Assembly: GCF_900100655.1 (NCBI RefSeq) | Contig: NZ_FNCE01000003.1 | Location: 1-64,000 of the forward strand | Source of the DNA: Limimonas halophila | GTDB taxonomy: Bacteria > Pseudomonadota > Alphaproteobacteria > Kiloniellales > Rhodovibrionaceae | Direction: 5' to 3' | DNA: 64,000 nucleotides | Part shown: positions 12,323 to 35,542 of the stretch, piece by piece | Layout of the letters: each line of letters opens with the position of its first letter | How positions within the stretch are numbered: position 1 is the stretch's first letter | Position numbers and translations under genes: made by a program | Notes under the pieces: generated by a model | The model's input: the letters and a program-made list of their open reading frames with translations, nothing else | Databases searched by the model: none | What the model was told of the DNA's origin: nothing

Positions 12323-13264
12323 TCACGTGCCGGGCAGGTCCTGGTCCGCCAGGTGGCGCAGCCCCCGCGGGGCGCGCGCGGGGTCCAGGCCGTCCGGGTC
12401 GATGCCCCAGGCGCGCCGGGGATCGATGCCGTAGTTGTCCCGAAGCCGCCCGAGGTCCGGGCCCAGGATGTTCAGCACGGTGGCCTCCTCCTCGGCCGTG
12501 AGCTGGAAGCGCCCCGGGACCTCGTGCCCCAATCGCCGGCGCAGGCGCTTGCGGAAGGCGCTGCTGGTGACGCGGGCGGCCAGGGCGCGCGCGGCGGGAA
12601 CCCGTGCCAGCTGCGCCCACACGGGCGGCGGCTGCTTGCGGTCCGCCGCGCTGTTGTGGGTGGCGAACGCGGCGGGTTCGAAGCGGTCCAGGCCCAGGAA
12701 GTCGCACACGCGGTCCAGCGTGGCCTGGGGGGCGGCCTTCATGTCCTCGAACACGAGCGGCAGGACGTCGGCGGCGGGAAAGCGCGCGGTGAAGGCGTCC
12801 AGCTGGTAGGCGTAGCGCGAGGTCATGATGCCGCGCTCGGACACCCCGGCGTCCAGGGAGAAATCGCGCGTCGGCTCGATCATGTGGGCCAGTTCCGCGC
12901 CCACGCGCGCCGCGTGCCGCGCCTGCGATTCCAGCCGCCGCAGGGGATGGCGCATCAGGTAGATGAAGCGCACCCGCACCCCGGGCAGCGTGGCGATCCG
13001 TTCCGGCACAAGGGGAAGGAACGGCCGCTTGGTGTAGTCGGTGGACGCCTCCAGCGCGACGCGGTGCTGGTGCGGATCGGGATCCCACAGCGCCATGTAC
13101 CAGTCGACCCCGCGGTTCCAGACCGCGTCGTCGGCGAAGAAGGCCGGCTCCTTGATCGACGAGGGCGCGACCTGCGGATGCTGGGAGAGGTAGTGGTACA
13201 GGCTCGTCGTGCCGGCCTTCATGGCGCCGATGACGAGGCAGATCGTCCCGATGTTCTGCGGCAT
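12323..13264 (-). CDS. Sulfotransferase family protein
   Basis: 313 residues. The PAPS 5'-phosphosulfate loop is IGAMKAGTTSLYHYL near residue 12-26, with YIYLMRHP-like RFIYLMRHPLRRLESQARH for 3'-phosphate binding and a heparan-sulfotransferase-like KEPAFFADD. It would transfer sulfate from PAPS to a hydroxyl or amine. It is the last gene of a run led by the CDP-alcohol transferase, 126 bp after the Tam41-like gene, so a lipid or surface-sugar acceptor is plausible. No PAPS synthesis genes are nearby. It converges with the amidase. Confidence 0.85.
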   Translation of the reverse strand: MPQNIGTICLVIGAMKAGTTSLYHYLSQHPQVAPSSIKEPAFFADDAVWNRGVDWYMALWDPDPHQHRVALEASTDYTKRPFLPLVPERIATLPGVRVRFIYLMRHPLRRLESQARHAARVGAELAHMIEPTRDFSLDAGVSERGIMTSRYAYQLDAFTARFPAADVLPLVFEDMKAAPQATLDRVCDFLGLDRFEPAAFATHNSAADRKQPPPVWAQLARVPAARALAARVTSSAFRKRLRRRLGHEVPGRFQLTAEEEATVLNILGPDLGRLRDNYGIDPRRAWGIDPDGLDPARAPRGLRHLADQDLPGT

Positions 13265-13390
13265 GAAGGGGCCTGTTCCGTCGGTCGACGCACCGCAGCA
13301 TGCGGCCTTCCGCGCGGCCGCGCCATCACTCGCGCAGATCAGAGATCCCGTGCTTTTGGAGGTTCCTCGCCCTGCAAACGATCCTTTGGC

Positions 13391-14335
13391 TTACCGGAAG
13401 CCACCGCGGCGGTAGAGCTTCCACAGCAGCGGCCAGCCGCCCAGCAGCGGGTGGCGGCGCTGGAACTCACTGGGCTGGACGCGCACGCCGCTGTGCCGTT
13501 CCACCTTCCACAACACGTAATCCACCCCGCCGCGGAAGGTTACGGTGGCCTTGATCAGGCGCAGGAGCGCGATGGTCTTGCCAAGCGGGCGTGCCAGCCG
13601 TGCCGCCAGCCGCGCCGCGCGGCGCTGGCCGCGGGTGACGGTGATGCGCAGGCGCGCGCCGTTCTGTACGGGTTGGGCGAGGCTGGTGGCGCTGGCGGCC
13701 AGGCGGGTGCGCTCGGCCAGCCGCTCGGAGGCCGCCGCGATCACGGCATCCACGCGCTCCGGCGGTTCGCTGCGCAGTTCGCGGGCGAAGGTTTCCTGCA
13801 GCCCGCGCTTCCACACGGCCGTGGGGTAAACCGTGCCGTCGAGCAGCGGAAAGGCCATGCGGTGGAAGGTTTCCACCGCGTCCACCAACGCGCGCAGCAC
13901 GCGTTCGCGCGCCGACTCGTCGCGCGCGTGAATCAGGCGGCAGGGCTGGGCGAAGCGTGCCCAGATGTGCGGCGTCGCCCCGGCACCGCCGGCCGCGGCC
14001 ACGAACTGGTCGGTGCGCATGACCGCCACCTTGGCGTGCAGCGTGCGCCCGCCGACCTGGGCTTCCAGATAGTGCACGTTGGGCGCCAGCGCCGCGCCCA
14101 GGGCCGCGGATACCCCGCGCCCGTACCAGGCCGTGTAGCTGTCCACGAGCACGTAGAAATCGAGCAGCGTGGTCGACGGATCGGCCGCGCGCAGCCCCGA
14201 GCCGTAGTACAGCACGGCGGCGACGGCCGGATGGCCGGCCCGCACGGTCTCGGCGAGCGCCCGCACGTCGTCGTTGACGGGGTCGTCGGCATCGCGCGTT
14301 ACGGCCGCGCGCAGGGCGTTGCGAGCCTCGGGCAT
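13391..14335 (-). CDS. Tam41/Mmp37-like phosphatidate cytidylyltransferase homologue
   Basis: 314 residues with a strong AAGGAGG site before the ATG. VLYYGSGL (YGSG at 44-47), LLDFYVLVD (D59), NVHYLE (H88-Y89) and LHAKVAVMRTDQF (K102) follow the order of the Tam41 nucleotidyltransferase core; a later helical part contains RFAQPCRLIHA and the VYPTAVWKRGL stretch. Tam41 makes CDP-diacylglycerol from phosphatidate and CTP in mitochondria, and bacterial homologues exist. It begins 10 bp after the kinase gene, whose product would be its substrate. I rate the fold likely and the exact substrate (phosphatidate or ceramide phosphate) open. Confidence 0.65.
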   Translation of the reverse strand: MPEARNALRAAVTRDADDPVNDDVRALAETVRAGHPAVAAVLYYGSGLRAADPSTTLLDFYVLVDSYTAWYGRGVSAALGAALAPNVHYLEAQVGGRTLHAKVAVMRTDQFVAAAGGAGATPHIWARFAQPCRLIHARDESARERVLRALVDAVETFHRMAFPLLDGTVYPTAVWKRGLQETFARELRSEPPERVDAVIAAASERLAERTRLAASATSLAQPVQNGARLRITVTRGQRRAARLAARLARPLGKTIALLRLIKATVTFRGGVDYVLWKVERHSGVRVQPSEFQRRHPLLGGWPLLWKLYRRGGFR

Positions 14336-14345
14336 GCCGCCTCCT

Positions 14346-15284
14346 TCACGCCACGCGGAAGCGCACGGGGGCGCCCGGTGTGAGCGTCAGGCACGTGGTG
14401 GGATCGCCGGGATACAACTCGCCGTCGAGTGTGCAGTCGGTTGAGGTGCACAACCGCAGGCGCCGGGGGCGCGCCCGCCAGACGCCGCGGCCGGGCCGGT
14501 CGCGGCCGTGGCCGTAGAGAAAGGCGGGCAGGCGCAGCCGGCCCGTAAGGGGCCAGCTCACGACCGCGACGCCCAGACCGCCGTCCGGGGGCGCGGGCCG
14601 CACCCCCATGAGCAGCCGGGCGAGCGTCGTGGCATAGATGACGACGACGCGGTCCATTTGCCAGGGACCGTCGTCCAGGGCATAGGACACGACATCCGGG
14701 CGCAGCACGGGGTCGTCGTCGATGCGGCCGGCGAGCAGGCGCAGCAGGGACACGCTCAGCGTGATGCCGTCGCTCAGCGGGCCGGGCAAGCCGCGGCTGT
14801 GCAGCTCGCCGGTCGACTGGCGGATGGCGCGCGGTATGGCGGCGGCGCCGAAGAAGAAGCCGTACTGCGTCGGCCCCCCGTCACGCTGCAGCGCGATGGG
14901 GCTGCGGACATTCACCCTCAGCGTGCGCCCCGCCGACCGGGCCGCAAGGACGCGCCGGAGCGCGCGGTGCGCCGGGCCGGCCAGGCCGACATCGGCGTGG
15001 ATCATATTCGTGGTGCCGCCGCGCAGCAGCACGATGTCCGGCTCGTTGGCGAAGGGAGCCTCGGTGCGCAGGCAGGTGAGCACCGCGTCGAGTGTGCCGT
15101 CGCCGCCGTCGATCGCCAGGGTGTCGACACCCTGCTGCGCGAACGCGCACAGGACAGCCGGAACCTCCCCAGCGGCGTGCGTTTCCGCCCAGAGCGCACC
15201 GGCGCCCTCGGCCACGGCGCGGACGCGGGCGTGCGCATCCGGGCGGCCGCTGTTGGCGTTGGCGAGAACCGCGAGCGTGCTCAC
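14346..15284 (-). CDS. Diacylglycerol kinase / LCB5-like lipid kinase
   Basis: 312 residues from a GTG at 15284. The nucleotide loop LANANSGRPDAHARV at the N-terminus and IDGGDGTLDAVL (GGDGT at 60-64) mark the DAGK catalytic domain shared by bacterial DgkB, YegS and sphingosine or ceramide kinases. RGGTTNMIHADVG is the following conserved motif. The C-terminal beta sandwich ends with the usual DGE step (LDGELYPGD). The start overlaps the stop of the CDP-alcohol transferase (GTGA). In Caulobacter an LCB5-like member is a ceramide kinase, so a sphingolipid substrate is possible here. Confidence 0.82.
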   Translation of the reverse strand: MSTLAVLANANSGRPDAHARVRAVAEGAGALWAETHAAGEVPAVLCAFAQQGVDTLAIDGGDGTLDAVLTCLRTEAPFANEPDIVLLRGGTTNMIHADVGLAGPAHRALRRVLAARSAGRTLRVNVRSPIALQRDGGPTQYGFFFGAAAIPRAIRQSTGELHSRGLPGPLSDGITLSVSLLRLLAGRIDDDPVLRPDVVSYALDDGPWQMDRVVVIYATTLARLLMGVRPAPPDGGLGVAVVSWPLTGRLRLPAFLYGHGRDRPGRGVWRARPRRLRLCTSTDCTLDGELYPGDPTTCLTLTPGAPVRFRVA

Positions 15285-16465
15285 GCCGCCGTCCGCAGCC
15301 AGGACACCACGGGCGTGCCGCGCTGGCGCAGCGCCTCCGCCTGCGCGATGCGCACGAGATGCACGCCGTCCGAGGCGACGTGCCACGCCGCGACGGCGAG
15401 CAGGCCCCAGTCCGGCCGCCCGGCGAGCCAGAAGGCGGTGAGCAGCAGCAGGTTGGGGTTGCGCCGCGCCGTGATCAGGCGGAAGCGTGAATCAAACCGC
15501 TCCCACATGTGGATCTCCAGCCCGAAGCGCGACAGGAAGTACCCCTCGCACAGCCGGCCGCCGATGTAGCCCAGGAAGATGATCCAGATCGCGGGCGCCA
15601 GCCAGTTGGCGGGGAGGCTCGCCCCCGCGGCCGTGAGCCCGATCCCCCAGGCGGCGTACCAGATGGGCGGATGAACCAGATCCAGCACGTGGTCGAAGAC
15701 GTCGCCGAAGGCGCTGGAGGTCAGCGTCACGCGCGCCAGCTTGCCGTCCACGGTGTCCAGGAAGGTCATCGCCCAGGCCGCGAGCAGGCCCCAGCCGAAG
15801 GCGCCGATCCAGAACAGCCAGATGACCAGTCCCACCAGCACGGCGCTGAGCAGCGTCACCATGTTGGGCGTGATCCCCAGCCGCGCGCACGCGCGCGTCG
15901 CCCAGAAGGCGGGGCCCGGCCACACCCACTTGGTCACGAGGTCGGTGACGCCCTTGTAGGCGGCGTCGTACAGGCGCCGTTCCGCGCTGCCGGCCTGACC
16001 CGGGGCGACGCGGCGGCACACCGGGTCGGTGCGCTTGCGCAGGCTGCCGCGATAGCCCTTGGCCACCGCGCGCGGCGACAGCACGCTGAAGGCCGAATCC
16101 GGCGGCGGCCGGCGCCCCAGCCAGCGGGCGGCGTGGGGCGCCTGCGCGGCGTCCACGTGGGCGGCGAGCACCTCGTGCCCGTCGCCGTCGGTGACGGCGA
16201 CGCCCGGGCTTTCCAGCAGGCCTTCCAGCAGCGCCTCGTCGATCACCGCGTCCCCGGCCAGCAGGATCACGCTGCCCGCCGTCGGCCAGGCCTGCCCCTG
16301 GTTCAGGACGGCGGTGATCCCCATCTTCGCCAGCATCCGGCGTGCGCGGGCCTCGGGCGTGAAGCCCCAGACGCGCGGCGGCGCCGCGACCGACTGAATC
16401 ACGGCGTATACCGGCGCGTTCGCCGATGGCTGTTGCCCCTGGGTGGCAGCCGTCTGCACCGTCAT
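15281..16465 (-). CDS. CDP-alcohol phosphatidyltransferase with N-terminal nucleotidyltransferase-like domain
   Basis: 394 residues. The N-terminal 160 residues resemble a reduced nucleotidyltransferase-like region (VILLAGDAVIDEALLEGLL, then HVDAAQAPHAARWL) without the usual GxGxRxxP loop, so it may be inactive. A KRTDP linker leads into a membrane domain with the complete CDP-OH-P motif D-x2-DG-x2-AR-x8-G-x3-D-x3-D (FLDTVDGKLAR onward). The layout recalls inositol-phosphate cytidylyltransferase/DIPP synthase fusions. It would join a CDP-activated group to an alcohol acceptor. It heads the run kinase, Tam41-like, sulfotransferase and is divergent from a phosphoesterase. Confidence 0.85.
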   Translation of the reverse strand: MTVQTAATQGQQPSANAPVYAVIQSVAAPPRVWGFTPEARARRMLAKMGITAVLNQGQAWPTAGSVILLAGDAVIDEALLEGLLESPGVAVTDGDGHEVLAAHVDAAQAPHAARWLGRRPPPDSAFSVLSPRAVAKGYRGSLRKRTDPVCRRVAPGQAGSAERRLYDAAYKGVTDLVTKWVWPGPAFWATRACARLGITPNMVTLLSAVLVGLVIWLFWIGAFGWGLLAAWAMTFLDTVDGKLARVTLTSSAFGDVFDHVLDLVHPPIWYAAWGIGLTAAGASLPANWLAPAIWIIFLGYIGGRLCEGYFLSRFGLEIHMWERFDSRFRLITARRNPNLLLLTAFWLAGRPDWGLLAVAAWHVASDGVHLVRIAQAEALRQRGTPVVSWLRTAA

Positions 16466-16519
16466 GGCGCCTCGACGCTTTCCTGGCTCCCGGCTCGAGC
16501 GATGGTCCGATCCCGACCG

Positions 16520-17398
16520 ATGGCCCGCCTGGTTCACGTTTCCGATCTGCACTGCCCGCCCCTGCCGGCCATGACCGTGCGGGAGGCGCTGAGCAAGCGC
16601 GTCTTGGGATATGCCTCCTGGCACCGCAAACGCAAGGCTCTGCATCGCAACGAGGTGCTGGAAGCCCTTACGCGCGATGTGGCCGCCTGCGGACCGGACC
16701 ACGTCTGCGTCACCGGCGACCTGACGAATCTGGGGCTGGCCGCCGAGGCGCCCACCGTGGCGCACTGGCTGGCGCGCTTCGGCGACGCGCGGGACGTCAG
16801 CGCCGTTCCCGGCAACCACGACGCCTACGTCCCCGACGCGCCCGCACCCGAACGGCAGTGGGCGGACTGGATGCGGGGCGATGAGGGCCAGCCGGGCTTT
16901 CCCTACCTGCGCCGGCGCGGCGGCCTGGCGATCGTGGGGGTGTCGAGCGCGGTGGCGACCCCGCCGTTTCTCGCCACCGGGCGCATCGGCACCGAGCAGG
17001 CGGGCCGCCTGGAAGCCCTGCTGCGCATCGCGAACAACGAGGGATTGGCCCGGGTGGTGCTGGTGCACCATCCGCCGCAGCCGGGCGCCGTGCGCCGCCG
17101 GGTGGCCCTCAGCGACGGCGGGCGCCTGCGTGCCGTGCTGGCGCGGACGGGGGCGGAGCTGGTGCTGCACGGGCACGCGCACAAACCCGTTCGGGCGTCG
17201 CTGACCGGCCCCGAGGGTGCCATCCCGGTGCTGGGCGTGGGGTCGGCGTCCTGCGTTGGGGATGCCCGCCACCCCTCGGCGGGCTTTCTCGTGCTCGATC
17301 TGGCGGCGCGGGACGGCCGCCTGGCCGGGACGGTGACGGATCACGCCTACGATCGCGTGCGCGACGCCTTCGTCGAAGGTGCGCAGCACGCCCTCTAA
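16520..17398 (+). CDS. Calcineurin-like metallophosphoesterase
   Basis: 292 residues from the ATG at 16520; an ATG at 16502 is also in frame. All five metal-binding blocks are present: VSDLHC, TGDLTNLG, PGNHDAY, VLVHHPP and LHGHAHKP. No signal peptide or membrane segment is seen. It starts 54 bp from the divergent CDP-alcohol transferase, sharing its promoter region. In that setting a role as lipid-phosphate or nucleotide-lipid phosphatase is an attractive guess, since UDP-diacylglucosamine and ceramide-phosphate type phosphatases belong to this fold. The substrate is not determined by the sequence. Confidence 0.87.
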   Translation: MARLVHVSDLHCPPLPAMTVREALSKRVLGYASWHRKRKALHRNEVLEALTRDVAACGPDHVCVTGDLTNLGLAAEAPTVAHWLARFGDARDVSAVPGNHDAYVPDAPAPERQWADWMRGDEGQPGFPYLRRRGGLAIVGVSSAVATPPFLATGRIGTEQAGRLEALLRIANNEGLARVVLVHHPPQPGAVRRRVALSDGGRLRAVLARTGAELVLHGHAHKPVRASLTGPEGAIPVLGVGSASCVGDARHPSAGFLVLDLAARDGRLAGTVTDHAYDRVRDAFVEGAQHAL

Positions 17399-17453
17399 GC
17401 TGGGGGCGGGGCAGCGCGAATGCCGAAGGTTCCCTCGGAAGAATGACAGTCGT

Positions 17454-17481
17454 TTGACAGCCACGCGACGCCAACTACGCT
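17454..17481 (+). promoter_or_regulatory. Promoter candidate for the nucleotidyltransferase at 17530
   Basis: TTGACA at 17454-17459 and TACGCT at 17476-17481, spacer 16 bp. The start codon lies 48 bp downstream of the -10. The -35 is perfect and the -10 only fair. Confidence 0.4.
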
Positions 17482-17529
17482 AAAGGGCGACGCCGAAATG
17501 GGCGCCGGGTGCGGTGAAGGGGGGCATGT

Positions 17530-18291
17530 GTGAAAACGGTGATTCTCAGTGCCGGGCAGGGGAAGCGCCTCCTGCCGCTGACGGAACGCGCGCCCAAGGC
17601 GCTGGTCGAGGTGGCCCCCGAGACCACGATCCTGGGCTGGCAACTCGACCAGCTCGCGGCGGCGGGCGTGGACGACGTCACCGTGGTGACCGGATTCGCG
17701 GCCGACCAGGTGGAGACCGCGCTGGCGCGCGCGCCCGCAGGCATGCGCGCGCGCACGCTCTACAATCCCTTCTGCGCCGTCGCGGACAACCTGAGCAGCG
17801 TCTGGCTGGCGCTGGACGCGCTGGGCGACGACGGCATCGTCCTCAACGGCGACACGCTCTTCGCCGCGCCCGTGGCGAGGCGCCTCATCGCCGCCGAAAC
17901 GCCGGCCACGGTGGTGATCTCGCGCAAGGACGGCTACGACACCGACGACATGAAGGTGTCGCTGGACGGCGAGCGCCTCGCCGCCGTGGGCAAGCAGCTT
18001 GATTCCGGCGTCGTGGACGCGGAATCCATCGGCATGATGCGCTTCCGCGGCGAGGGCATGGCGCGCTTCCGCGCGGCCGTCCGCGACGCCATGCGCCGCG
18101 AGGACGCCCTGCGCGTCTGGTACCTCAGCGTCGTCGACGCCATGGCGCGCCAGGGCGGGGTTTCGGTGACGGAAGCGGGCGCGGACGAGTGGTGCGAGGT
18201 CGATTTCCCGGCGGACCTGACGCACGCCCGCGAAGCCCTGGCGCGCTGGCGCGCCAGCGTCAGCCCCGGTCGCGCGGCCACGGGGACCTGA
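17530..18291 (+). CDS. Nucleotidyltransferase (sugar/polyol/choline-phosphate type)
   Basis: 253 residues from a GTG. KTVILSAGQGKRLLPLTERAPKAL is the nucleotide-binding and signature segment; YNPFCAVADN (78-87), VLNGDTLF (N106-G107-D108) and YDTDDMKVSL follow, ending with EWCEVDFPADL that carries the second metal aspartate. This pattern is close to LicC-like and inositol-phosphate cytidylyltransferases rather than to RmlA. It would make a CDP- or other NDP-activated head group in the cytoplasm, a natural donor for the nearby CDP-alcohol transferase. It converges with the MobA-like gene, ending 5 bp from its stop. Confidence 0.83.
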   Translation: MKTVILSAGQGKRLLPLTERAPKALVEVAPETTILGWQLDQLAAAGVDDVTVVTGFAADQVETALARAPAGMRARTLYNPFCAVADNLSSVWLALDALGDDGIVLNGDTLFAAPVARRLIAAETPATVVISRKDGYDTDDMKVSLDGERLAAVGKQLDSGVVDAESIGMMRFRGEGMARFRAAVRDAMRREDALRVWYLSVVDAMARQGGVSVTEAGADEWCEVDFPADLTHAREALARWRASVSPGRAATGT

Positions 18292-18296
18292 CTCCC

Positions 18297-19103
18297 CTAC
18301 CGCGGTGAATCGCCCAGGATGTCCCGCACCAGCGCGAGGTCGTCGAGCTTGTCGACGTCGATCGGGGCCCGCGGGGAGTCCACCACGACCGGGCGCAGCC
18401 TCACCCCGACGCGCTTGCCCAGACGGTCCAACGCCCGGCGCAGCGTCAGCCGCTTGAGCAGGTAGAGCGCCACGGTCACCGGCCCGATCGCCAGCGCCAT
18501 GCGCCAGGGCCGCTTGCGCGTGTGTTCCAGCCGCCGCCACGCCGCCACCATGCGCCGGGCGTCGGGCGTCATCAGCGCGAAGACGTTGCAGCCGCTGTAG
18601 CCGCCGTCGCGGAAATTCAGGCTCGTGCGGCTGGCCTGTGGGTAGGCGGCGGTCACGGTTGCGATGGCCGCGAACCCGGCGGCGACGTCCGCCCCTTCCA
18701 GCGCCGCCGTGTCCAGCACCTGCCGCACCACCGCCGGTTCCAGCAGCGGGTGGTCGCCCGTCACCACCAGCAGCGGCGTGTCCCCCGGCAGGTCGTCGAG
18801 CTGTGCCAGGACGCATTCCGTCGGCGTTTCGCCGGGCGCCACCCGCACCGCGCGACCGTCGGCGAAGCGCTCGGCCAGCCCCGGCGCTTCCTGCTCCGCC
18901 GGGGCGTCGGCCGCCAGGGCCACGCGCACCGCGTCCACGCGGCCGCTGGCGTCCAGCGCCGCGAGGACGTGCTCGATCATGGGCTTGCCGCCCACCTCGA
19001 CGAAGGCCTTGCAGCTCTTGCCGCCGGCGGCGGCGACCGGTTCACCGGGCGCGCGCGTGCCCGCGAGCACCAGCGCCACGGCGCGCGGTTGGGAAGCGGT
19101 CAT
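18297..19103 (-). CDS. MobA-like NTP transferase
   Basis: 268 residues. The N-terminus ALVLAGTRAPGEPVAAAGGKSCKAFVEVGGKPMIEHVL is a variant of the NTP-transferase loop with a longer, less glycine-rich turn. LLVVTGDHPLLEPAVV holds the metal aspartate, SRTSLNFRDGGYSGCNVFAL corresponds to the substrate pocket, and IDVDKLDDLALV is the second aspartate motif. A C-terminal helical segment with PVTVALYLLKRLTL may touch the membrane. The start overlaps the acyltransferase stop (ATGA). It is a third activation-type enzyme within 4 kb, which points to head-group synthesis. Confidence 0.8.
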   Translation of the reverse strand: MTASQPRAVALVLAGTRAPGEPVAAAGGKSCKAFVEVGGKPMIEHVLAALDASGRVDAVRVALAADAPAEQEAPGLAERFADGRAVRVAPGETPTECVLAQLDDLPGDTPLLVVTGDHPLLEPAVVRQVLDTAALEGADVAAGFAAIATVTAAYPQASRTSLNFRDGGYSGCNVFALMTPDARRMVAAWRRLEHTRKRPWRMALAIGPVTVALYLLKRLTLRRALDRLGKRVGVRLRPVVVDSPRAPIDVDKLDDLALVRDILGDSPR

Positions 19104-20227
19104 GCGATGTCCTTGGCGTAGACGCGGTAGCGCTTGGCGGCGACGCCGCCCACGGTTTCGATCACGCGGCGCGTGGGCCAGTTGTCGTCGAGGATCCACG
19201 ACAGTTCCAGGTCGGTGATGCCGTGGTTGGGCGTGACGACCGCGTGCAGGCGCTGGATCAGCAAGAGCGGCAGGCCGCGGCCCACGGGGCTGTCGCGGTA
19301 GGCCCGGCGCACGCCCATCAAGAGGACGCGGCCGCTGGACAGCCCGCGCACCTTCAGCCGCCACAGCAGCTTCGCCCAGCCGAACGGCAGCAGCCGCCCG
19401 TCCAGGCCCTGCAGCGCCTCGTTCAGGTCGGGCAGGGCGACGATCATGGCCGCCGGCTCGCCGTCGATCTCGGCGATGCGCACCATGTCGGGCTTGATGA
19501 GGGGGCGCAGGTTGCTGACGAGCGCGCCCACCTCCGCCGGGGTCATGGGGACGAAGCCCCAGTTGTCCGCCCAGGCGTCGTTGAAGATGTCGATGATGGT
19601 GCGCAGCTCGGTGTGCAGCTGGCGCGGATTGATGGGGCGCTCGTGCACGTTGGGCTCCGCCGCCGTCTGCTCGGCCATGCGCCGGGCGCGGCGGGGCAGC
19701 GGCTGCGTGGGGTCGAAGTCGTAGGCGATCAGGTCCTGAACGCCGTCGAACCCGGCGGCTTCGACGGCCGGGCCGTACCATTGGGGCGCGTCGTTCATCA
19801 GCATGCGCACGGGGCGCTCGAAGCCGTCGACACGCAGCCCGACCTCGTCGTTGATGGAGAGGCTGAACGGCCCGGCCAGCCGCGTTGCGCCCCGCTCGCG
19901 CGCCCAGCCCTCGGCGGCGGCCAGCAGCGCGTGCAGCGCCTCGCGGTCGACGCCTTCCAGCAGGCCGAAGTGGGCGACGCGCGGCCCGTCGTCCGGCTGC
20001 GCCAGCCGGTCGAGCTGGGCGCTGATGCGCCCCACGGGCGCGCCGTCGCGCGTGGCCAGGAAGTATTGCGCCTCGGCGTGCTCGAAGAAGGGGTTGCCGT
20101 GGCCCAGGTGCTGCTTGCGCTCGACGTCGAGGAAGGGCGCGCGCGTGCAGTCCCCGTCGATCCGCGCCGGGACGCGCAGGAACCGCCGGAACGCCCGGCC
20201 GCCGGAAACGCGTTCGACCGCCGTCAC
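19100..20227 (-). CDS. GNAT-type acyltransferase, ceramide-synthase-like
   Basis: 375 residues from a GTG at 20227 that overlaps the preceding stop. Residues 45-71 (NPFFEHAEAQYFLATRDGAPVGRISAQ) and the later ARLAGPFSLSINDEVGL and WYGPAVEAAGF are hallmarks of a large GNAT family found in many bacteria. The Caulobacter bacterial ceramide synthase is a GNAT-fold protein that I believe belongs to this group. It is encoded between a fatty-acid-hydroxylase-type enzyme and a nucleotidyltransferase, all coupled. I infer N-acylation of a long-chain amine; other acyl acceptors are possible. Confidence 0.65.
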   Translation of the reverse strand: MTAVERVSGGRAFRRFLRVPARIDGDCTRAPFLDVERKQHLGHGNPFFEHAEAQYFLATRDGAPVGRISAQLDRLAQPDDGPRVAHFGLLEGVDREALHALLAAAEGWARERGATRLAGPFSLSINDEVGLRVDGFERPVRMLMNDAPQWYGPAVEAAGFDGVQDLIAYDFDPTQPLPRRARRMAEQTAAEPNVHERPINPRQLHTELRTIIDIFNDAWADNWGFVPMTPAEVGALVSNLRPLIKPDMVRIAEIDGEPAAMIVALPDLNEALQGLDGRLLPFGWAKLLWRLKVRGLSSGRVLLMGVRRAYRDSPVGRGLPLLLIQRLHAVVTPNHGITDLELSWILDDNWPTRRVIETVGGVAAKRYRVYAKDIA

Positions 20228-21000
20228 GCGCGCTTCGCTCCGCCGGGCTTTTTGCGGCCCACGCCCTCGCGGGCGGCCTGCACCTCGTCCAGATCCGGCG
20301 TCAGCCGCGCCACCCACGGGAAGCGCGCCACCTCTTCGCCGGTGTAGCCCAGGTTGAAGACCGTTGGGCTGCGGCGGGTGTTTTTGGGGTCTGGGTTGTG
20401 CGTGCCGAAGACGAAATCGCCGAGCGGGTTCGTGATGCCGAAGTTGGTGTGGTCGTCCTGGAAGTGGTGCTGCAGGTGCAGCTGCTTCATCTTTTTCAGG
20501 AAGCGGTTGCGCGGCTGGTAGGGCAGGTGCTGGACGCTGTGCACGAACTCGTAGATGCAGAACACCACGAAGCCCGCCGCCATGCCGGCCGTGGCGCCGG
20601 CCAGGCCGCCCGCGATCGCCCCGATCGCGCCCGTGATAACCGTGATCGCGGGGATGGTGGTGTAGAGCGCGCCGAAGAGGACGCGCAGGTCGTGCGGATC
20701 GCGGTGGTGATCGAAGTGGACGCGCTTCCACGCCTTCGCCAGCCAGGGCCAGCGGTACATGCGCCCGTGCAGCACGTAGCGGTGCAGCAGGTACTCCACG
20801 AAGGGATAGGCCGCGACCACGAGAACGGCCGCCAGCACCACCGGCCGGATGGTGTCCGCGAGCCGCCAGGAGGCGTAGGCGCAGCCCGCGCCCGCCAGGA
20901 TATAGACCTGGATCGAGGGATGCAGGAAGTAGGCGGTCCACAGCTCCTTCAGCGTCATCTTGTCGAGCCGGTAGGGCTGATCCCAGAACCGCAGCTTCAT
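20224..21000 (-). CDS. Fatty acid hydroxylase / sterol desaturase superfamily membrane enzyme
   Basis: 258 residues with about four membrane segments. The diiron histidine clusters are complete: H73-x4-H78 (HRYVLH), H95-x2-HH99 (HFDHH), H154-x3-H158 (HSVQH) and H175-x2-HH179 (HLQHH), with a following DDH. The EYLLHRYVLH context is like fatty acid 2-hydroxylase (Scs7/FA2H), which makes 2-hydroxy acyl chains of sphingolipids. It leads a coupled three-gene unit, followed by the ceramide-synthase-like acyltransferase. The enzyme class is firm; 2-hydroxylation of an N-acyl chain is an inference. Confidence 0.8.
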   Translation of the reverse strand: MKLRFWDQPYRLDKMTLKELWTAYFLHPSIQVYILAGAGCAYASWRLADTIRPVVLAAVLVVAAYPFVEYLLHRYVLHGRMYRWPWLAKAWKRVHFDHHRDPHDLRVLFGALYTTIPAITVITGAIGAIAGGLAGATAGMAAGFVVFCIYEFVHSVQHLPYQPRNRFLKKMKQLHLQHHFQDDHTNFGITNPLGDFVFGTHNPDPKNTRRSPTVFNLGYTGEEVARFPWVARLTPDLDEVQAAREGVGRKKPGGAKRA

Positions 21001-21173: not shown

Positions 21174-22250
21174 TCACTCTTCCATGCTGATGACGACCCA
21201 CAGGCCGAGGCTGGCGAACACGATCGCGGGTGTCCACGCCGCCACGGCGGCGGGCAGCATCCCCGTCTCGCCGAGCGCGACGAGAACGCGTTCGCTGACG
21301 AAGAAGAGGAAGCCGGCGAGGATCGTGGCGAAGCTGACCAGCAGCATGCGATTGCGCCGCGCCGCCTGGAGCGCCACCGGCGCGGCGATCAGGACCATGA
21401 CCAGCGCGCCGGCCGGGTGCGCCAGCTTGCGGTGCAGCCAGAAGTTGTAGAACGATGCCGGGCGGTTGGCACTCTGCGGGTTCTTGCGCAGCGTCCACAA
21501 TTCCTCAAGCCCCAGCTCCGCCGGGCTCTCCGCGAGCGTGGAAAAGCGCCCGGGCGAGATCGGCAGCACCAGGTCGAGGCGCGGCATCGTCTCCGCCGCC
21601 CCGGGCCCGTCGCTCGTGGGGCGGTGCACCTCGTGGAACTGCCAGAAGCCGTTGCGGAAGCGCGCCCAGTCCGCCGTGAAGATGTCGGTCAGCCGGCCTT
21701 CCGGCGAGCGGCGCACCACGGTCACGCCCTGCAAGCGCCGGCCGTCGGTGGCGGACCCGCTGACGTGGACCAGCGCGTCGCCGGCGGCGAACCAGGTGGG
21801 CGCGCGCTGCGGGGCCACCTCCGGCGGCATACCGCGGTAGTCGCGTTCCGCCCACAGGCGCAGGCGCGCCGAGCTGTGCTGGACCACGAACTCCTGGAAG
21901 GCCGTGTGCGCCACCGCCAGCACCCCCGCGCCCAGGATCATCGCGGCGATGACGCGGTGCACGGACACCCCGGCCGCGCGCGCGGCGACCATCTCACTGG
22001 TCATCACGAGCTGGCCGTAGACCATCATCGACGCCAGCAGCGCCGCCAGGGGCACCACGAGCGAGATCACGTCCGGCGCGCGCAGCGCGGCGTAGGCGAA
22101 GACGGGCATGAGCACGCCCGCGCCCTTACCGATGATCGCCGAGGCGTTGGCAAGCACGTCGAACACCAGCAGCAGCGCCGTCAGCGCCATGGTCGTCGCC
22201 AGGGCGCGGCTGACGTAGAGGCGGAAGACGTAGCGCGTCAGCGTGCGCAT
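21174..22250 (-). CDS. lptG: LPS export ABC transporter permease LptG
   Basis: 358 residues in the YjgP/YjgQ family, with three N-terminal and three C-terminal membrane segments around a periplasmic beta-jellyroll. The start LTRYVFRLYVSRALATTMAL, the coupling-helix area VPLAALLASMMVYGQLVMTSEMVAARAAGVS and the C-terminal NRMLLVSFATILAGFLFF are typical. With LptF and the LptB ATPase (not in the window) it extracts lipopolysaccharide from the inner membrane. It follows lptF by 4 bp. The order lptF-lptG is the standard one. Confidence 0.93.
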   Translation of the reverse strand: MRTLTRYVFRLYVSRALATTMALTALLLVFDVLANASAIIGKGAGVLMPVFAYAALRAPDVISLVVPLAALLASMMVYGQLVMTSEMVAARAAGVSVHRVIAAMILGAGVLAVAHTAFQEFVVQHSSARLRLWAERDYRGMPPEVAPQRAPTWFAAGDALVHVSGSATDGRRLQGVTVVRRSPEGRLTDIFTADWARFRNGFWQFHEVHRPTSDGPGAAETMPRLDLVLPISPGRFSTLAESPAELGLEELWTLRKNPQSANRPASFYNFWLHRKLAHPAGALVMVLIAAPVALQAARRNRMLLVSFATILAGFLFFVSERVLVALGETGMLPAAVAAWTPAIVFASLGLWVVISMEE

Positions 22251-22254
22251 GGGC

Positions 22255-23433
22255 TTAGCGCCCCTCCGCCAGCTGGCGGCGGTAGCCGGGCGGCCGGCGC
22301 GGGTGCAGCGCGATGGCGATGGCCCCGCGCACGCCGCTTTCCGAGACGCTCAACAGCCACACCCCGGAGACGATGAACAGCACCGCGAACGGGCCCCACA
22401 GGGCAAGCGGCGGCGGCAGCACCCCCACCTCGGCGAAGTTCTCCCCGAAGCTGAGCACCTTCTGATAGAGCACCACCAGCACCACGCCCAGGCCCAGCCC
22501 ATAGGCGCGCCCCGTGCGCCCGCGCCCCAGCAGCGCCAGCGGCACCGCCAGGAAGGTGAGCGGGATCAGGGATGCCACGTGCACCAGCCGCGTGTGCAGC
22601 TCCGTGGACCGCAGGCGGTGCTCGACGTTGGCGCCGGCGGGCGTGCCGCCCCCGGCGATCAGCTCGGGGACGGTGAACTCGCGGGAATCCTGACCGCGCG
22701 GACCGTAATCGCCGGCGGAATCCATGGGCGGTTCCCAGGTGTAGTCCGTGAAAGTGATGCGCGCGGCGCCGGTGGCGCTGCCGTCGAAGCGCACCACGCT
22801 CCCGTCGAAGAGCTGGACCACCAGCTTGCCGGTGTTCGCCTGCCGGACCAGCCGGGCGCGCTCCGCCACCACCAGGGTGCGCGGGCCGTTCTCGGGTTGC
22901 GCCTCGGCGAAGAAGTGGAGCAGCGTTCGCCCCTGGTCCGTCACGCCGTCGGCGCGCACCACGAACCGATCGTTGACCCGGTGGAAGACGCCGGGGGCCA
23001 GCCCGAGCGCGAGCGAGGTCTGGGAAATCTCCTGGATCTGCGCCCGGTAGGCGTGGCGGCTGACGGGCTGGAGGTGGCTGGCGTTCGCCAGCGCCAGGAG
23101 CGTGAGCACCAGCGCCATCGCCAGCATCGGGCGCGCGATCCGCCGCACCGAGATTCCCGCGGCCATCATGGGCAGCAGCTCGGAGGCGGTGTGCAGCCGC
23201 CGCACGGTGAGCAGCGCAGCCAGAAAGAAGGCCGCCGGGATCGCCAGCTCCAGGTAGTGCGGCAGCAGGTAGCCCAGCACCTCAAGGGCGCTGGAAACCG
23301 GCGCCCCCTGATTGGTGACCTCCTCCACCAGCCGCATCAGCCGCTCCAGGGCGAGGGCCGAGAGCACGACCACCACCCCGAGCGCGAAGTAGGCGCTCGT
23401 CCGCCGCACGATGTAGGCGGACAGCGTGCTCAT
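22255..23433 (-). CDS. lptF: LPS export ABC transporter permease LptF
   Basis: 392 residues, YjgP/YjgQ family. LSAYIVRRTSAYFALGVVVVLSALALERLMRL is the first segment; the coupling region is FFLAALLTVRRLHTASELLPMMAAGISVRRI, then a periplasmic beta domain and three closing membrane helices (LIPLTFLAVPLALLGRGR, YGLGLGVVLVVLYQKVL). It works as a heterodimer with LptG. Its ATG overlaps the HIT-protein stop as ATGA, so expression is coupled to that gene. The neighbouring lipid locus lies on the same strand 170 bp beyond lptG. Confidence 0.92.
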   Translation of the reverse strand: MSTLSAYIVRRTSAYFALGVVVVLSALALERLMRLVEEVTNQGAPVSSALEVLGYLLPHYLELAIPAAFFLAALLTVRRLHTASELLPMMAAGISVRRIARPMLAMALVLTLLALANASHLQPVSRHAYRAQIQEISQTSLALGLAPGVFHRVNDRFVVRADGVTDQGRTLLHFFAEAQPENGPRTLVVAERARLVRQANTGKLVVQLFDGSVVRFDGSATGAARITFTDYTWEPPMDSAGDYGPRGQDSREFTVPELIAGGGTPAGANVEHRLRSTELHTRLVHVASLIPLTFLAVPLALLGRGRTGRAYGLGLGVVLVVLYQKVLSFGENFAEVGVLPPPLALWGPFAVLFIVSGVWLLSVSESGVRGAIAIALHPRRPPGYRRQLAEGR

Positions 23434-23864
23434 GCCGGCCAGGCGGCGCGCAGGTCCGCCAGCAGCGCCTCGCGCACCCCGGCCTCGATGGCGTTGTCGT
23501 GCGCGATCTGCGGCGGGCCGGGCCAGCCGGGGTCGCTGAAGGTGGCGCCCCGGTAGCTGCGCGGGCCGCTGTAGCGCGGCAGCACGTGATCGTGGACGTG
23601 CGGGTCCACCATCATCAGCTTCAGGTAGTTCAGCTGGTCCGGCCCGAAGAGGGCGTGCAGCGCCAGCTGGATGTCGCGCACGGGCTGGGCCAACTCGGTG
23701 AAGGCGGCGTCCGGCAGCTCGGCGAAGGCGGTGACCTCGGCCTTCGCGATCAGCACCAGCGCGCCCAATGTGGCCTGCTTGGGGCGCAGCTGAACGGTCC
23801 AGTGGTCGTACTCTCGGATCAGCAGGTCCGGGTAGCCGAACGCCGTCATCGTTGCGTGCGCCAT
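23430..23864 (-). CDS. HIT family hydrolase
   Basis: 144 residues. The histidine triad is H89-V-H91-D-H93 within MVDPHVHDHVLPRY, preceded by the usual LNYLKLMM strand. Family members hydrolyse or transfer nucleotides from dinucleotides and adenylated or phosphoramidate substrates. It carries a rather divergent N-terminus. It is translationally coupled to lptF, an arrangement I cannot explain from function. No signal peptide. Confidence 0.87.
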   Translation of the reverse strand: MAHATMTAFGYPDLLIREYDHWTVQLRPKQATLGALVLIAKAEVTAFAELPDAAFTELAQPVRDIQLALHALFGPDQLNYLKLMMVDPHVHDHVLPRYSGPRSYRGATFSDPGWPGPPQIAHDNAIEAGVREALLADLRAAWPA

Positions 23865-23953: not shown

Positions 23954-25297
23954 TCAGGCCGGGGCGGGCGTTACCGCGCGCACGAGGCGCGGGTAGGCGG
24001 CGGCCAGCGAGATCCCGCGCGCGGCCATGAAGACCATCAACGCCAGCCACAGCCCGTGGTTGCCCCAGATGGGAATGAGGGCCCAGCACGCGCCCAGGTA
24101 GATCGCCAGCGAGACGAGCATGGCCGTGCGCATCGGCCCGGTGCGCGTCGCGCCGATGAAGATGCCGTCGAGCTGGAAGGCCCAGACCGACAACAGCGGC
24201 GAGGCCACCATCCACGGCAGGTAACTCGCCGCCGCCGCGCGCACCGCGCTCAGGTCCGTCATCACCCCGATGAGCAGCGTCCCCGCGCCGGCGAAGACCA
24301 CGGCCGCGGCGGCGGCGAGGATGACGGCCCAGAGCGTCGCCGTGCGCACGGCCCGGCGCAGCCACGCCCGGTCGGCGCCGCCGACCGCGCGGCCGACCAG
24401 GATCTCGGTGGCGTGGGCGAAGCCGTCGAGGCCGTGGGAGAGGAACTGCTGGAACTGCATCAGCACGGTGTTGGCGGCCAGCGTCACCTCGCCGAAGGCC
24501 GCGCCGCGCGCGGTGAAGAAGGCGAAGGCGAAGATCAGCGCCAGGGTGCGCACGAAGATGTCGCGGTTGACCCGCAGCATCGCCACCAGCCGCTCGCGGT
24601 TGAGCAGCCGCTCGCGCGACCAGCGCCCGCCCGTGCGCGCCAGCACCCGCCAGCACACCGCCAGGCCCAGCGCCGCCGCCGCGACCTCCGCCAGCAGGCT
24701 CGCCCAGGCGACGCCCGCGATCGTCATGCCCAGGCCGGCGACGAAGAGCAGGTCGAGAACGATGTTCACGCCGTTCAGCGCGACCTGGAGCGCCAGCGCG
24801 TGCCGGGGCCGCTGCGTGCCCAGCAGCCAGCCGAGGACGGCGTAGTTCGTCAGCGCGAAGGGGGCGGAGAAGATGCGGATGGAAAAGTAGGTCTCGGCAT
24901 GGCCGAGCACGGCGGGCGTGGCGTCCACCACCGCGAAGGCGACCGCGCCGATGGGCCATTGCAGCGCGATCAGCCCCGCGCCCAGGCCGCCCGCCAGCAG
25001 CAGCGCCCGGCCCAGGGTGGCGCGCAACTCGTCGGGGTCGTCCGCGCCCAGGGCCTGCGCGGCGAAGCCGGTCGTGCCCATGCGCAGGAAGCCGAAGCCC
25101 CAGTAGAGAAAGGAGAACACCAGCGCGCCCACCGAGACGCCGCCGATGAAGGCGGGGTCGGGCAGGTGCCCCATCACGGCCGTGTCCACCGCGCCCAACA
25201 GCGGCGTGGACAGGTTCGCCAGGATGATGGGCAGCGCCAGCGTCAGCACGCGGCGGTGCCAGCCCTGCTCGGTTTCCGGGGTGGATGGTGCGGTCAT
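23954..25297 (-). CDS. MATE family efflux transporter (DinF-like)
   Basis: 447 residues, twelve predicted membrane segments in two repeats. The opening WHRRVLTLALPIILANLSTPLLGAVDTAVMGHLP is the DinF/NorM signature, with VLTLA...PLLGAVDTAVMG matching the first repeat and the second repeat starting near residue 230 (VNRDIFVRTLALIFAFAFF). MATE proteins export organic cations or drugs with sodium or protons. It sits alone, 89 bp downstream of the HIT gene's start. DinF-branch membership is suggested by the GAVDTAVMGHL motif. Confidence 0.9.
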   Translation of the reverse strand: MTAPSTPETEQGWHRRVLTLALPIILANLSTPLLGAVDTAVMGHLPDPAFIGGVSVGALVFSFLYWGFGFLRMGTTGFAAQALGADDPDELRATLGRALLLAGGLGAGLIALQWPIGAVAFAVVDATPAVLGHAETYFSIRIFSAPFALTNYAVLGWLLGTQRPRHALALQVALNGVNIVLDLLFVAGLGMTIAGVAWASLLAEVAAAALGLAVCWRVLARTGGRWSRERLLNRERLVAMLRVNRDIFVRTLALIFAFAFFTARGAAFGEVTLAANTVLMQFQQFLSHGLDGFAHATEILVGRAVGGADRAWLRRAVRTATLWAVILAAAAAVVFAGAGTLLIGVMTDLSAVRAAAASYLPWMVASPLLSVWAFQLDGIFIGATRTGPMRTAMLVSLAIYLGACWALIPIWGNHGLWLALMVFMAARGISLAAAYPRLVRAVTPAPA

Positions 25298-33518: not shown

Positions 33519-35542
33519 CGACGGCCGGCGCCGGCTTCCCCACCGCCGCGCGTTGCGCCGTCGCCCCCGGCGTGTGGGCGGCCGTGCTGGGCGCGGTGCT
33601 CCTGCCGCTCGCCGCGCTCGGGCACGCGGGCCTGGAGGCGCCGTGGTCGCCCGCGGACGTCTGGGCCGCCGTCGCCGGCGGGGAGTCGCCCTTCGGTCCC
33701 CTGATCCGGGAGGTGCGCCTGCCGCGCACGGCCGCGGCCTGCCTCGCGGGCGCCATGCTCGCGCTCTCCGGCGTCGTCTTCCAGGCGCTGACGGGCAACG
33801 TCCTGGCCGCGCCCGGTGTGCTGGGCGTGACCACCGGCGCGAACGTCGGGCTGGTCGCGGCGCTGCTGCTGTGGCCCGGCGCGGCGCTGGTGCCCGCGCT
33901 GCCGGCGTTCCTCGGCGGCCTCGCGGCGGCGGCGATCACAGCCGGCGTGGCGCGCGCGGCCGGCGGCGGGCCGACGCAGCTCATCCTCGCGGGGATCGCG
34001 GTCTCGCTGGCGGGCACGGCCCTCAGCACGGCGCTGGCGTTGTTCGACACCGAGCGCGTCGCGGGGGTCTTCGTGTGGAGCGCCGGGGACGTGGCGCAGG
34101 GCTCCTGGCACGCCGTCGCCGTGGCGGCCGCCGCGCTCGCGCCGCTGGGCCTCGGGCTGGCGGCGCTCGCGCGTTCGCTCGACCGCATGCGCCTGGGCGC
34201 GACCGAAGCGGCGGCGCTCGGCGTGGCCGTGACCCCCGTGCGCTTGGGCGCCGGGGCGCTGGCCGTGCTGATGGCGGCGCTGGCGGTTTCGATGGTCGGG
34301 CCGATCGCCTTTCTCGGCCTGGTCGTGCCCAACGCCCTGCGCGCGCTGGGCATCGCGCGGCCCGCGGCGCTGGCGCCGCCGGCGGCCGCGTGGGGAGCCC
34401 TCCTCCTGCTGGGCGCCGACGCCGTGAGCCTTGCGCTCGACGCCGGGGCGACGTTTTCGGCGGGGCTCGTCACCGCGCTGATCGGCGCGCCCGTCCTGGT
34501 CGCCCTGGTGGCCCGCCGGGCGCCCGCCGAGGGCCGCGGCACGGGGCTGCCGGGGCGACGGCGCAGCCCGCCGCCCGTCGCCATCGCCGCCGGGGCGGTC
34601 GGCGTTCCGCTGCTTCTGGCCGCGAGCGTCGCGACGGGTGCGACGGGACCGCCGGCGCTCGACAGCGTCCTGGCGGCTGTGGGGGCCCTCGATGCCGGCC
34701 AGGTGCCCGCGCACGTCCTCGACCAGCGCCTGCCGCGCACGACCGTGGCGCTGCTGGCCGGCGCGTTCCTGGCGCTGGCGGGCGTGCTGCTCCAGGGCGT
34801 CGTGCGCAACCCGCTGGCCGGCCCGGAGGTGCTGGGGCTGACGCAGGGCGCGGGGTTGGCGGTGGTCGCGGCCGTGCTGCTGCTGCCCGGCACGGGCCGC
34901 GAAGCGCTTCAGCTCGCCGCCGTCGCCGGCGCCGCGGCGGCACTGATCGTGGTCACGCTGGCGGCCGGACGCGCCAGCGCGCCCGTGCGGCTGGCCCTGG
35001 TGGGGGTGGCGATCTCGGGCGTTGCCGCGTCCCTCGCCGCCGTGGCCGTGCACGCGGCGGGGCTGCGCGGGGCGGAGGTGCTCACCTGGCTGGCCGGCAG
35101 CACCTACGCGCGCGGCTGGCCGGCCGTGGCGAGCGCGCTGCCGGGGTTGGCGCTGTGGCTGCCGGCCGCGCTGCTGGCCCGGCGCCTGGACGTGCTGCGC
35201 CTGGGCGACGCGCACGCGGGCGCGCTGGGCATGCGCGCCGGGACGACCCGGCGTACGGCCCTGGCGACGGCGGCGCTGGCGGCGGGTGCGGCCGTCGCGA
35301 TCGTCGGCCCGGTCGCGTTCGTGGGGCTGGTGGCGCCGCACGCTGCGCGCCTCCTCGTGGGCGGCCGGCACGGGCCGCTCCTGGCCGTGGCGCCGCTGCT
35401 CGGCGGCGGGCTGTTGGCGGTGGCGGATCTTGTCGGCCGCAGCGTCCTGGCGCCGACCGAGGTGCCGGCGGGCGTGGTCACGGCGCTGCTGGGCGCGCCC
35501 TATTTCCTCGGACTCCTGGCGCTCGGGGGGCGGCGCGCATGA
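33515..35542 (+). CDS. Fused FhuB-type iron-siderophore permease
   Basis: 675 residues, two FecCD permease domains in tandem (about 20-335 and 350-675), giving roughly 20 membrane segments. Each half carries the LPRTxxAxLAGAxLALSGxxxQ motif (LPRTAAACLAGAMLALSGVVFQ and LPRTTVALLAGAFLALAGVLLQ) and the coupling-helix glycine region (IAFLGLVVPN, VAFVGLVAPH). Most siderophore importers use a homodimer of one-domain permeases; fusion is the FhuB pattern and suggests hydroxamate-type substrates. It overlaps both neighbours by 4 bp. Confidence 0.93.
   Translation: MTTAGAGFPTAARCAVAPGVWAAVLGAVLLPLAALGHAGLEAPWSPADVWAAVAGGESPFGPLIREVRLPRTAAACLAGAMLALSGVVFQALTGNVLAAPGVLGVTTGANVGLVAALLLWPGAALVPALPAFLGGLAAAAITAGVARAAGGGPTQLILAGIAVSLAGTALSTALALFDTERVAGVFVWSAGDVAQGSWHAVAVAAAALAPLGLGLAALARSLDRMRLGATEAAALGVAVTPVRLGAGALAVLMAALAVSMVGPIAFLGLVVPNALRALGIARPAALAPPAAAWGALLLLGADAVSLALDAGATFSAGLVTALIGAPVLVALVARRAPAEGRGTGLPGRRRSPPPVAIAAGAVGVPLLLAASVATGATGPPALDSVLAAVGALDAGQVPAHVLDQRLPRTTVALLAGAFLALAGVLLQGVVRNPLAGPEVLGLTQGAGLAVVAAVLLLPGTGREALQLAAVAGAAAALIVVTLAAGRASAPVRLALVGVAISGVAASLAAVAVHAAGLRGAEVLTWLAGSTYARGWPAVASALPGLALWLPAALLARRLDVLRLGDAHAGALGMRAGTTRRTALATAALAAGAAVAIVGPVAFVGLVAPHAARLLVGGRHGPLLAVAPLLGGGLLAVADLVGRSVLAPTEVPAGVVTALLGAPYFLGLLALGGRRA

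Follow-up and report, generated by a model that had tools for sequence, protein, structure and literature searches.

A Caulobacter-type ceramide head-group locus in Limimonas halophila, a bacterium without LpxC, LpxB and LpxK matches, and its possible role as an outer-leaflet lipid system

Introduction

What does an LptF/LptG pair carry when it is encoded beside ceramide genes in a bacterium that may have no lipopolysaccharide (LPS)? The question is raised by a locus at the start of contig NZ_FNCE01000003.1 of Limimonas halophila (assembly GCF_900100655.1, source genome, G000 below), of which positions 1-64,000, hereafter the window, were analysed. Nine genes between positions 12323 and 21000, most of them counterparts of ceramide and head-group genes, run on past 21000 into LptG, LptF and HIT-domain genes that end at 23849. 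A region of this kind, CC_1152-CC_1168, governs CPG/CPG2 in Caulobacter crescentus, as described in the accessible parts of PMC11324152 and, for CpgD, of PMC12275187. According to the former it is not known how bacterial sphingolipids get to the outer membrane, and LptC2, LptF2 and LptG2 are only suggested. The answer proposed here from genome comparison is that a Caulobacter-type CPG/CPG2 locus now serves a bacterium that lacks lipid A as its outer-leaflet system, a reading to which I assign a probability of about 0.7.

Lipid A genes and the LptF/LptG pair

No match to LpxC, LpxB or LpxK was found in G000, in a search that covered these three families and not LpxA, LpxD, LpxH/I or WaaA. The same three families were matched in the E. 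coli and Caulobacter controls and in 43, 43 and 42, respectively, of 58 genomes compared (source included), mostly with E values of 1e-85 to 1e-110 in the relatives. In the relative G002 the three genes are widely separated, and all three are jointly absent in G000 and in 13 of the 58 genomes; the G000 assembly, a draft of 26 contigs, is listed as 100% complete. Genomes were scored as LPS-positive when all three families were matched and as LPS-negative when none was, and as CerS-positive when they held a strong match to the ceramide synthase of the locus (E <= 1e-88; 25 of 58). By these definitions 15 genomes are LPS-positive and CerS-positive, 26 LPS-positive and CerS-negative, nine (G000 included) LPS-negative and CerS-positive, and four (G007, G040, G045 and G049) negative for both, while the lpx searches were discordant in the remaining four (G032, G033, G036 and G055). 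G040 is probably an incomplete LPS-positive genome, since its completeness is 81% and a canonical LptF/LptG pair lies beside its LptD. With G040 (family f8) left out, LPS-negative genomes occur in four families, f1, f2, f5 and f6, and the combination LPS-negative and CerS-positive is seen in f1, f2 and f5. Because f1, f5 and f6 also hold LPS-positive genomes, this distribution implies four losses of LPS or more, provided that each family is a natural group and no gene came back.

The LptG (21174..22250, minus strand) and LptF (22255..23433, minus strand) genes of the window are the only matches of G000 above the family cut-off of PF03739. LptD was found in 58 of 58 genomes, and the LptF/LptG genes were sorted by their position relative to it (beside, within 5 kb) and to CerS (near, within 8 kb). 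All 15 LPS-positive, CerS-positive genomes have LptF/LptG genes near CerS (a single gene in G024), with one or more additional such genes beside LptD. Among the 26 LPS-positive genomes without CerS, 25 have the genes beside LptD, with LptD divided between contigs in G051. Each of the nine LPS-negative, CerS-positive genomes has two counted matches, none beside LptD; both are near CerS in eight, and those of G027 lie on other small contigs or at contig ends. LptF/LptG genes are thus beside LptD in 40 of 41 LPS-positive genomes versus 1 of 13 LPS-negative ones (Fisher 4.8e-10, kinship ignored), and every genome with four LptF/LptG matches is CerS-positive.

Phylogeny separates canonical from CerS-linked pairs. 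Midpoint-rooted trees were built from a chosen part of the 58 genomes (42 LptF and 43 LptG sequences, with 4 of the 15 LPS-positive, CerS-positive genomes left out and G055 labelled LPS-positive). In both, the canonical sequences (18 and 19, respectively) are split from all the CerS-linked ones with support of 100/100, and the window pair belongs to the latter clade, as do the pairs of G007, G045 and G049. Twelve of the 13 LPS-negative genomes hold CerS-clade genes only, and G040 canonical ones only.

The place usually occupied by the canonical pair can be recognized. The usual order, holC-pepA / lptF-lptG-lptD-surA, is complete in six of nine LPS-positive genomes examined; the pepA side is missing in G002, the arrangement is cut by a contig end in G001, and lptF lies elsewhere in G031. 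Among 12 LPS-negative genomes examined, G000 and nine others have pepA followed directly by lptD, with no lptF or lptG between them, and in the other two (G013 and G027) the pair is likewise absent at lptD and pepA was not found.

The ceramide and head-group locus

The initial annotation had read positions 12323-21000 as a sphingolipid-type locus of nine genes, with a GNAT enzyme related to the Caulobacter ceramide synthase and a logic of lipid phosphorylation, CDP activation and head-group transfer. All nine genes and their families, the ceramide synthase and that logic are borne out by Pfam, fold and orthology. Pfam matches were obtained for DAGK_cat, CDP-OH_P_transf, Metallophos, NTP_transf_3 (two genes), FA_hydroxylase and the sulfotransferase families PF13469/PF00685. 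The overlaps that it had called many amount to three of eight junctions (GTGA between hydroxylase and CerS genes, ATGA between CerS and MobA-like genes, GTGA between CDP-alcohol transferase and kinase genes), and two of the nine genes are on the plus strand. That annotation had passed over the adjacent LptF/LptG pair and the lack of lipid A genes.

The CerS gene (19100..20227, minus strand; counterpart of CC_1154) is identified as the bacterial ceramide synthase on orthology, alignment and synteny. Its product is 47% identical to that of a gene of the Azotobacter vinelandii cluster; the Pfam GNAT signal is below threshold (E 0.029, 15.1 bits for a cut-off of 20.7), and a search of its profile against the PDB gave nothing meaningful. 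The CerS count of 25 genomes leaves out weak matches in G048 and G052 (4e-27 and 3e-25), as well as second CerS-like genes, about 40% identical, which G013 and G027 carry on another contig (G013:C6:11772-12764 and G027:C100:19-1002).

Phosphorylation of ceramide is assigned to the GGDGT-bearing kinase (14346..15284, minus strand, PF00781), the counterpart of CpgB/CC_1160 and here also called CerK. The adjacent gene (13391..14335, minus strand), the counterpart of CpgC/CC_1161, was matched by no Pfam or NCBIfam family at E <= 0.1. Its AlphaFold model (pLDDT 94.1) has the overall fold of Tam41: Tam41 structures take Foldseek ranks 1-5 (best 7ecd, 2.7e-9; TMt 0.54-0.62, root-mean-square deviation 4.4-7.5), and 19 positions are invariant in an alignment of 35 sequences. 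It is a candidate for CTP-dependent activation of ceramide 1-phosphate.

The counterpart of CpgD/CC_1152 (17530..18291, plus strand, PF12804/PF00483) is 50% identical to a gene of the A. vinelandii cluster and is assigned as a phosphoglycerate cytidylyltransferase; compared with PDB sequences it matched general nucleotidyltransferases only, and no solved CpgD. The Caulobacter enzyme makes CDP-glycerate and is likened to inositol-1-phosphate cytidylyltransferase in the accessible part of PMC12275187. The counterpart of CpgA/CC_1159 (15281..16465, minus strand, PF01066) has a complete CDP-alcohol transferase motif, invariant in 21 sequences, and an N-terminal domain. In the latter no cytidylyltransferase signature (GxGxR...K) was visible by eye in the same 21 sequences. 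Foldseek places Archaeoglobus IPCT-DIPPS (4mnd, TMq 0.56) first for its model (pLDDT 92.2), a fold with a nucleotidyltransferase-like domain joined to a CDP-alcohol transferase domain, as in IPCT-DIPPS, in a protein that would work like the DIPPS half only. CpgD and CpgA together may thus resemble a split IPCT-DIPPS, with glycerate replacing inositol. A second CDP-alcohol transferase match was seen in the CerS loci L079, L117, L120, L121 and L127, where it lies with LptG on one side and CerS or the hydroxylase on the other, and also in L126, hinting at other head groups.

Two further genes have counterparts whose roles are known from Caulobacter mutants alone: a MobA/CofC-like nucleotidyltransferase (18297..19103, minus strand, PF12804; CC_1153) and a metallophosphoesterase (16520..17398, plus strand, PF00149; CC_1158 by family and place). 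In L158-L161, and in loci such as L082 and L100, CerS, CerK and CpgC are accompanied by the MobA-like gene in the absence of any CpgA or CpgD match, so the role of this gene may extend beyond the CPG-to-CPG2 step.

The last gene of the nine (20224..21000, minus strand, PF04116) encodes a diiron hydroxylase of the FA2H/Scs7 type, proposed to act on the N-acyl chain of ceramide. Ten histidines, invariant in 15 sequences, all align to those of Scs7 (4zr1), and the patterns HX4H, HX2HH, HX3H and HX2HH match Scs7 positions; Scs7 was the sole molecule matched by the profile in the PDB, even at E <= 10. Yeast Scs7 and mammalian FA2H, the ceramide fatty acid 2-hydroxylases, share the ten-histidine pattern and carry an N-terminal cytochrome b5 domain, for which the window protein, with 258 residues, is too short. 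Strong matches (E <= 1e-60) occur in 24 of the 58 genomes, all beside CerS, that is, in 24 of 25 CerS-positive genomes versus 0 of 33 others (Fisher 1.9e-15, kinship ignored), G002 being the only CerS genome among them that has none. This count leaves out weak matches (E 1.5e-9 to 1.8e-4) in G042, G033 and G002 and a second one in G020.

The extent to which these genes travel together was examined in named CerS loci obtained by alignment of CerS (the best 80 out of 578). Flanks of up to 10 kb (at least 8 kb on both sides in 38 of the 80) were searched by tblastn at E <= 1e-4. Among these best 80 loci the MobA-like gene was found in 56, AasR in 48, Spt in 44, CerR in 42, LptG in 41, the metallophosphoesterase in 39, CpgC and AcpR in 37 each, LptF in 33, CerK in 32, the hydroxylase in 31, CpgA in 29, CpgD in 26 and the HIT gene in 20. 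Of the 31 hydroxylase matches, 29 are on the same strand as CerS and at most 164 bp from it; the other two are one at 1.1 kb and a weak one (29%) on the opposite strand. Of the 38 loci whose two flanks both reach 8 kb, 11 hold the set CpgD-CpgA-MobA-CerK-CpgC. The window locus holds all seven of CerS, CerK, CpgC, CpgA, CpgD and the CC_1153-type and CC_1158-type genes, and the full head-group set is also present in the syntenic stretches compared in the relatives G021 and G002; in G002 the de novo genes adjoin CpgC.

No serine palmitoyltransferase gene lies in the window, as the initial annotation had noted; the source of the long-chain base, which it had left as unknown, is a cluster aasR-cerR-acpR-spt on contig C6 of G000 (L005, 8904-13530). 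A search of G000 with the 5-aminolevulinate-synthase family gave three places, one over the family cut-off, one BioF and one Spt. The Spt protein matches a solved serine palmitoyltransferase (2x8u) at 6.1e-137, and AcpR, CerR and AasR, each with the expected domains, adjoin it. Of the conditions under which the initial annotation would have been refuted, the genomic one, a genome devoid of long-chain-base genes, thus does not hold. The aminotransferase match on contig C1 was rejected as a second Spt, as its neighbours mark it as BioF in a biotin operon.

Sulfotransferase and other neighbours

The initial annotation had allowed for sulfation of the product, in view of a sulfotransferase gene at the edge of the locus (12323..13264, minus strand, PF13469/PF00685). 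Sulfation as a pathway step was rejected as unsupported. The gene was found in none of the best 80 of 578 CerS loci within the flanks searched, and it is absent from the syntenic stretches compared in G021 and G002. Good homologues among the 58 genomes occur at unlinked places only, the five closest in other relatives not being near CerS. A literature search on bacterial sphingolipid sulfotransferases, mainly of the openly accessible part, gave unrelated work only. The sulfotransferase is probably a neighbour and not part of the conserved locus.

At the other end, the HIT-domain gene (23430..23849, minus strand, PF01230) overlaps LptF by ATGA. The MATE transporter gene that lies beyond it (23954-25297) was considered as a lipid flippase and rejected, with no occurrence in the best 80 of 578 CerS loci. 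Elsewhere in the window, positions 34001-36000 stand out by 80% GC and an AT skew of -0.36; they lie mostly inside a long gene adjoining an ABC ATPase-like gene.

Discussion

Ceramide synthesis, ceramide phosphorylation and formation of CDP-glycerate are supported in L. halophila by orthology or homology, and a sequence of events can be proposed around them. The aasR-cerR-acpR-spt cluster of contig C6 would make the long-chain base and CerS would N-acylate it; the Scs7/FA2H-type enzyme may hydroxylate the N-acyl chain, probably at C2. CpgB would then phosphorylate the ceramide, CpgC, with its predicted Tam41 fold, may activate the ceramide phosphate with CTP, CpgD would make CDP-glycerate as the Caulobacter enzyme does, and CpgA, built like IPCT-DIPPS, would transfer phosphoglycerate. 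Finally, the adjacent LptF2/LptG2 pair, together with LptD, would carry the lipid to the outer leaflet, where it would replace LPS, as the pattern of gene loss suggests. From genomics alone, an LPS-less outer membrane with a sphingolipid exported by LptF2G2-LptD is the most likely state of the cell, the sphingolipid probably taking the place of LPS on its surface. I also favour, on balance and with some reserve, an evolutionary extension of this scheme. Four or more families of a single alphaproteobacterial order, probably the Kiloniellales, would have lost lipid A synthesis together with canonical lptFG and retained LptD, now coupled to a second pair, LptF2G2; in f1, f2 and f5, where that pair is encoded with the ceramide-head-group genes, the Lpt bridge would have turned into an exporter of sphingolipid for building the outer leaflet.

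Could G000 be an ordinary LPS-bearing bacterium that has a CPG2 locus and whose lpx genes escaped the search because they are divergent or fall in assembly gaps? The assembly is indeed a 26-contig draft and the lpx search was of three families, but it is listed as 100% complete, the matches in relatives are strong, three dispersed families are missing together, and the canonical lptFG are gone from exactly the stretch that adjoins lptD, so that this is improbable. It is unlikely, if less so, that LPS is absent and LptF2G2-LptD carries another lipid, the sphingolipid taking a different route to the surface. G007, G045 and G049, which keep CerS-clade LptFG without CerS, would fit such a client, against which stand the finding, in 24 of 25 CerS-positive genomes (G027 is the exception), that one or both genes of such a pair lie no more than 8 kb from CerS, and the fact that the genomes with four LptFG matches are all CerS-positive. 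The reading of the locus as a new pathway ending in a sulfated sphingolipid is the least probable of all. The sulfotransferase is downstream on the same strand and its PAPS motifs look intact by eye; its absence from the CerS loci and both syntenic relatives, the lack of linkage of its homologues to CerS, and the 126 bp that separate it from the CpgC gene all speak against it. The substrate of the hydroxylase, finally, might be the long-chain base or another lipid instead of the N-acyl chain of ceramide. PF04116 also includes sterol and sphingoid-base C4 hydroxylases, and G000 has a second desaturase-type enzyme; the sole PDB match being Scs7, a ceramide fatty-acid hydroxylase, this alternative is doubtful, though of those considered here it is the one to be taken most seriously.

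Several observations weigh against the proposed conversion of the locus into an outer-leaflet system, besides the restriction of the lpx search to three families. A partial PF03739 match (26.3 bits over 110 positions, below the cut-off) exists in G000 at C1:169771-170085 (L146), and a third LptFG match is present in the CerS-negative genome G015, which has 8% contamination. Long branches are flagged in the trees; the window sequence is one of them in that of LptF, joined to the long branch of G021, so its placement within the clade is unsure. G007, G045 and G049 (L154, L155 and L157) combine CerS-clade LptFG with the absence of CerS and of the three lipid A families, and no Spt-type genes were found in the 13-19 kb examined in each. 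In four LPS-negative genomes (L158-L161) CpgA and CpgD were not found in 18-20 kb around CerS; CPG2 itself may for this reason not be common property of the LPS-less relatives, and these four may export CPG or another lipid. The only PF00487 desaturase/hydroxylase match of G000 (C7:109571-110326, L147) could be the counterpart of Caulobacter CCNA_00202.

The initial annotation knew of no described pathway with this exact set of genes, a statement that does not stand, for the Caulobacter CPG2 pathway uses most of it (PMC11324152 and PMC12275187, accessible parts). Head-group families, CerS and LptF2/LptG2 lie in one region in both organisms, Caulobacter being known here by description, with A. 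vinelandii sequences as the anchor. They differ in that the de novo genes of L. halophila are on a separate contig, a Scs7-type hydroxylase lies beside cerS, no LptFG pair other than LptF2G2 exceeds the cut-off, and matches to LpxC, LpxB and LpxK are lacking. The A. vinelandii CPG2 cluster is named as orthologous and contiguous in the accessible part of PMC11324152, with no CC_1158 counterpart. In the 21-kb locus L128 of this species, CerS, the MobA-like enzyme, CpgD, CpgA, CerK, CpgC, Spt, AcpR, CerR and AasR are all matched at 31-51% identity and LptG at 28%; the de novo genes are next door, and neither the hydroxylase nor the metallophosphoesterase has a match. LPS-less bacteria with a sphingolipid instead, such as Sphingomonas koreensis (same source, accessible part), resemble the state proposed for L. 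halophila; the latter differs in belonging to another alphaproteobacterial order (by inference), in the several separate losses seen among its relatives, in having phospho-head-group genes and in the exchange of its Lpt pair for the sphingolipid-linked one.

The hydroxylase of Caulobacter cited in the accessible part of PMC11324152 is the DesA-family CC_0202, away from cerS. FA2H-like enzymes are present in myxobacteria (PMC10002949, accessible part), so bacterial FA2H homologues are already known; in the literature, mainly its openly accessible part, no report of a cerS-linked Scs7-type hydroxylase was seen. Enzymes of this cerS-linked Scs7 type are specific candidates for hydroxylating the acyl chain of ceramide across many alphaproteobacteria.

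Both the CPG2 pathway and a suggested transport by LptC2/F2/G2 are already in print, and the new point is the Lpt exchange that accompanies the loss of lipid A genes; no test of LptF2G2 in sphingolipid transport and no report of such an exchange were seen in the literature, again mainly in its openly accessible part. With the sole full LptFG pair inside a sphingolipid locus, no LpxC, LpxB or LpxK match, and LptD present, the usual confounder is removed in L. halophila, because LPS is probably not a client of LptF2G2-LptD. The question of sphingolipid export thereby becomes directly testable, and the pattern points to a repeated evolutionary route to the loss of LPS.

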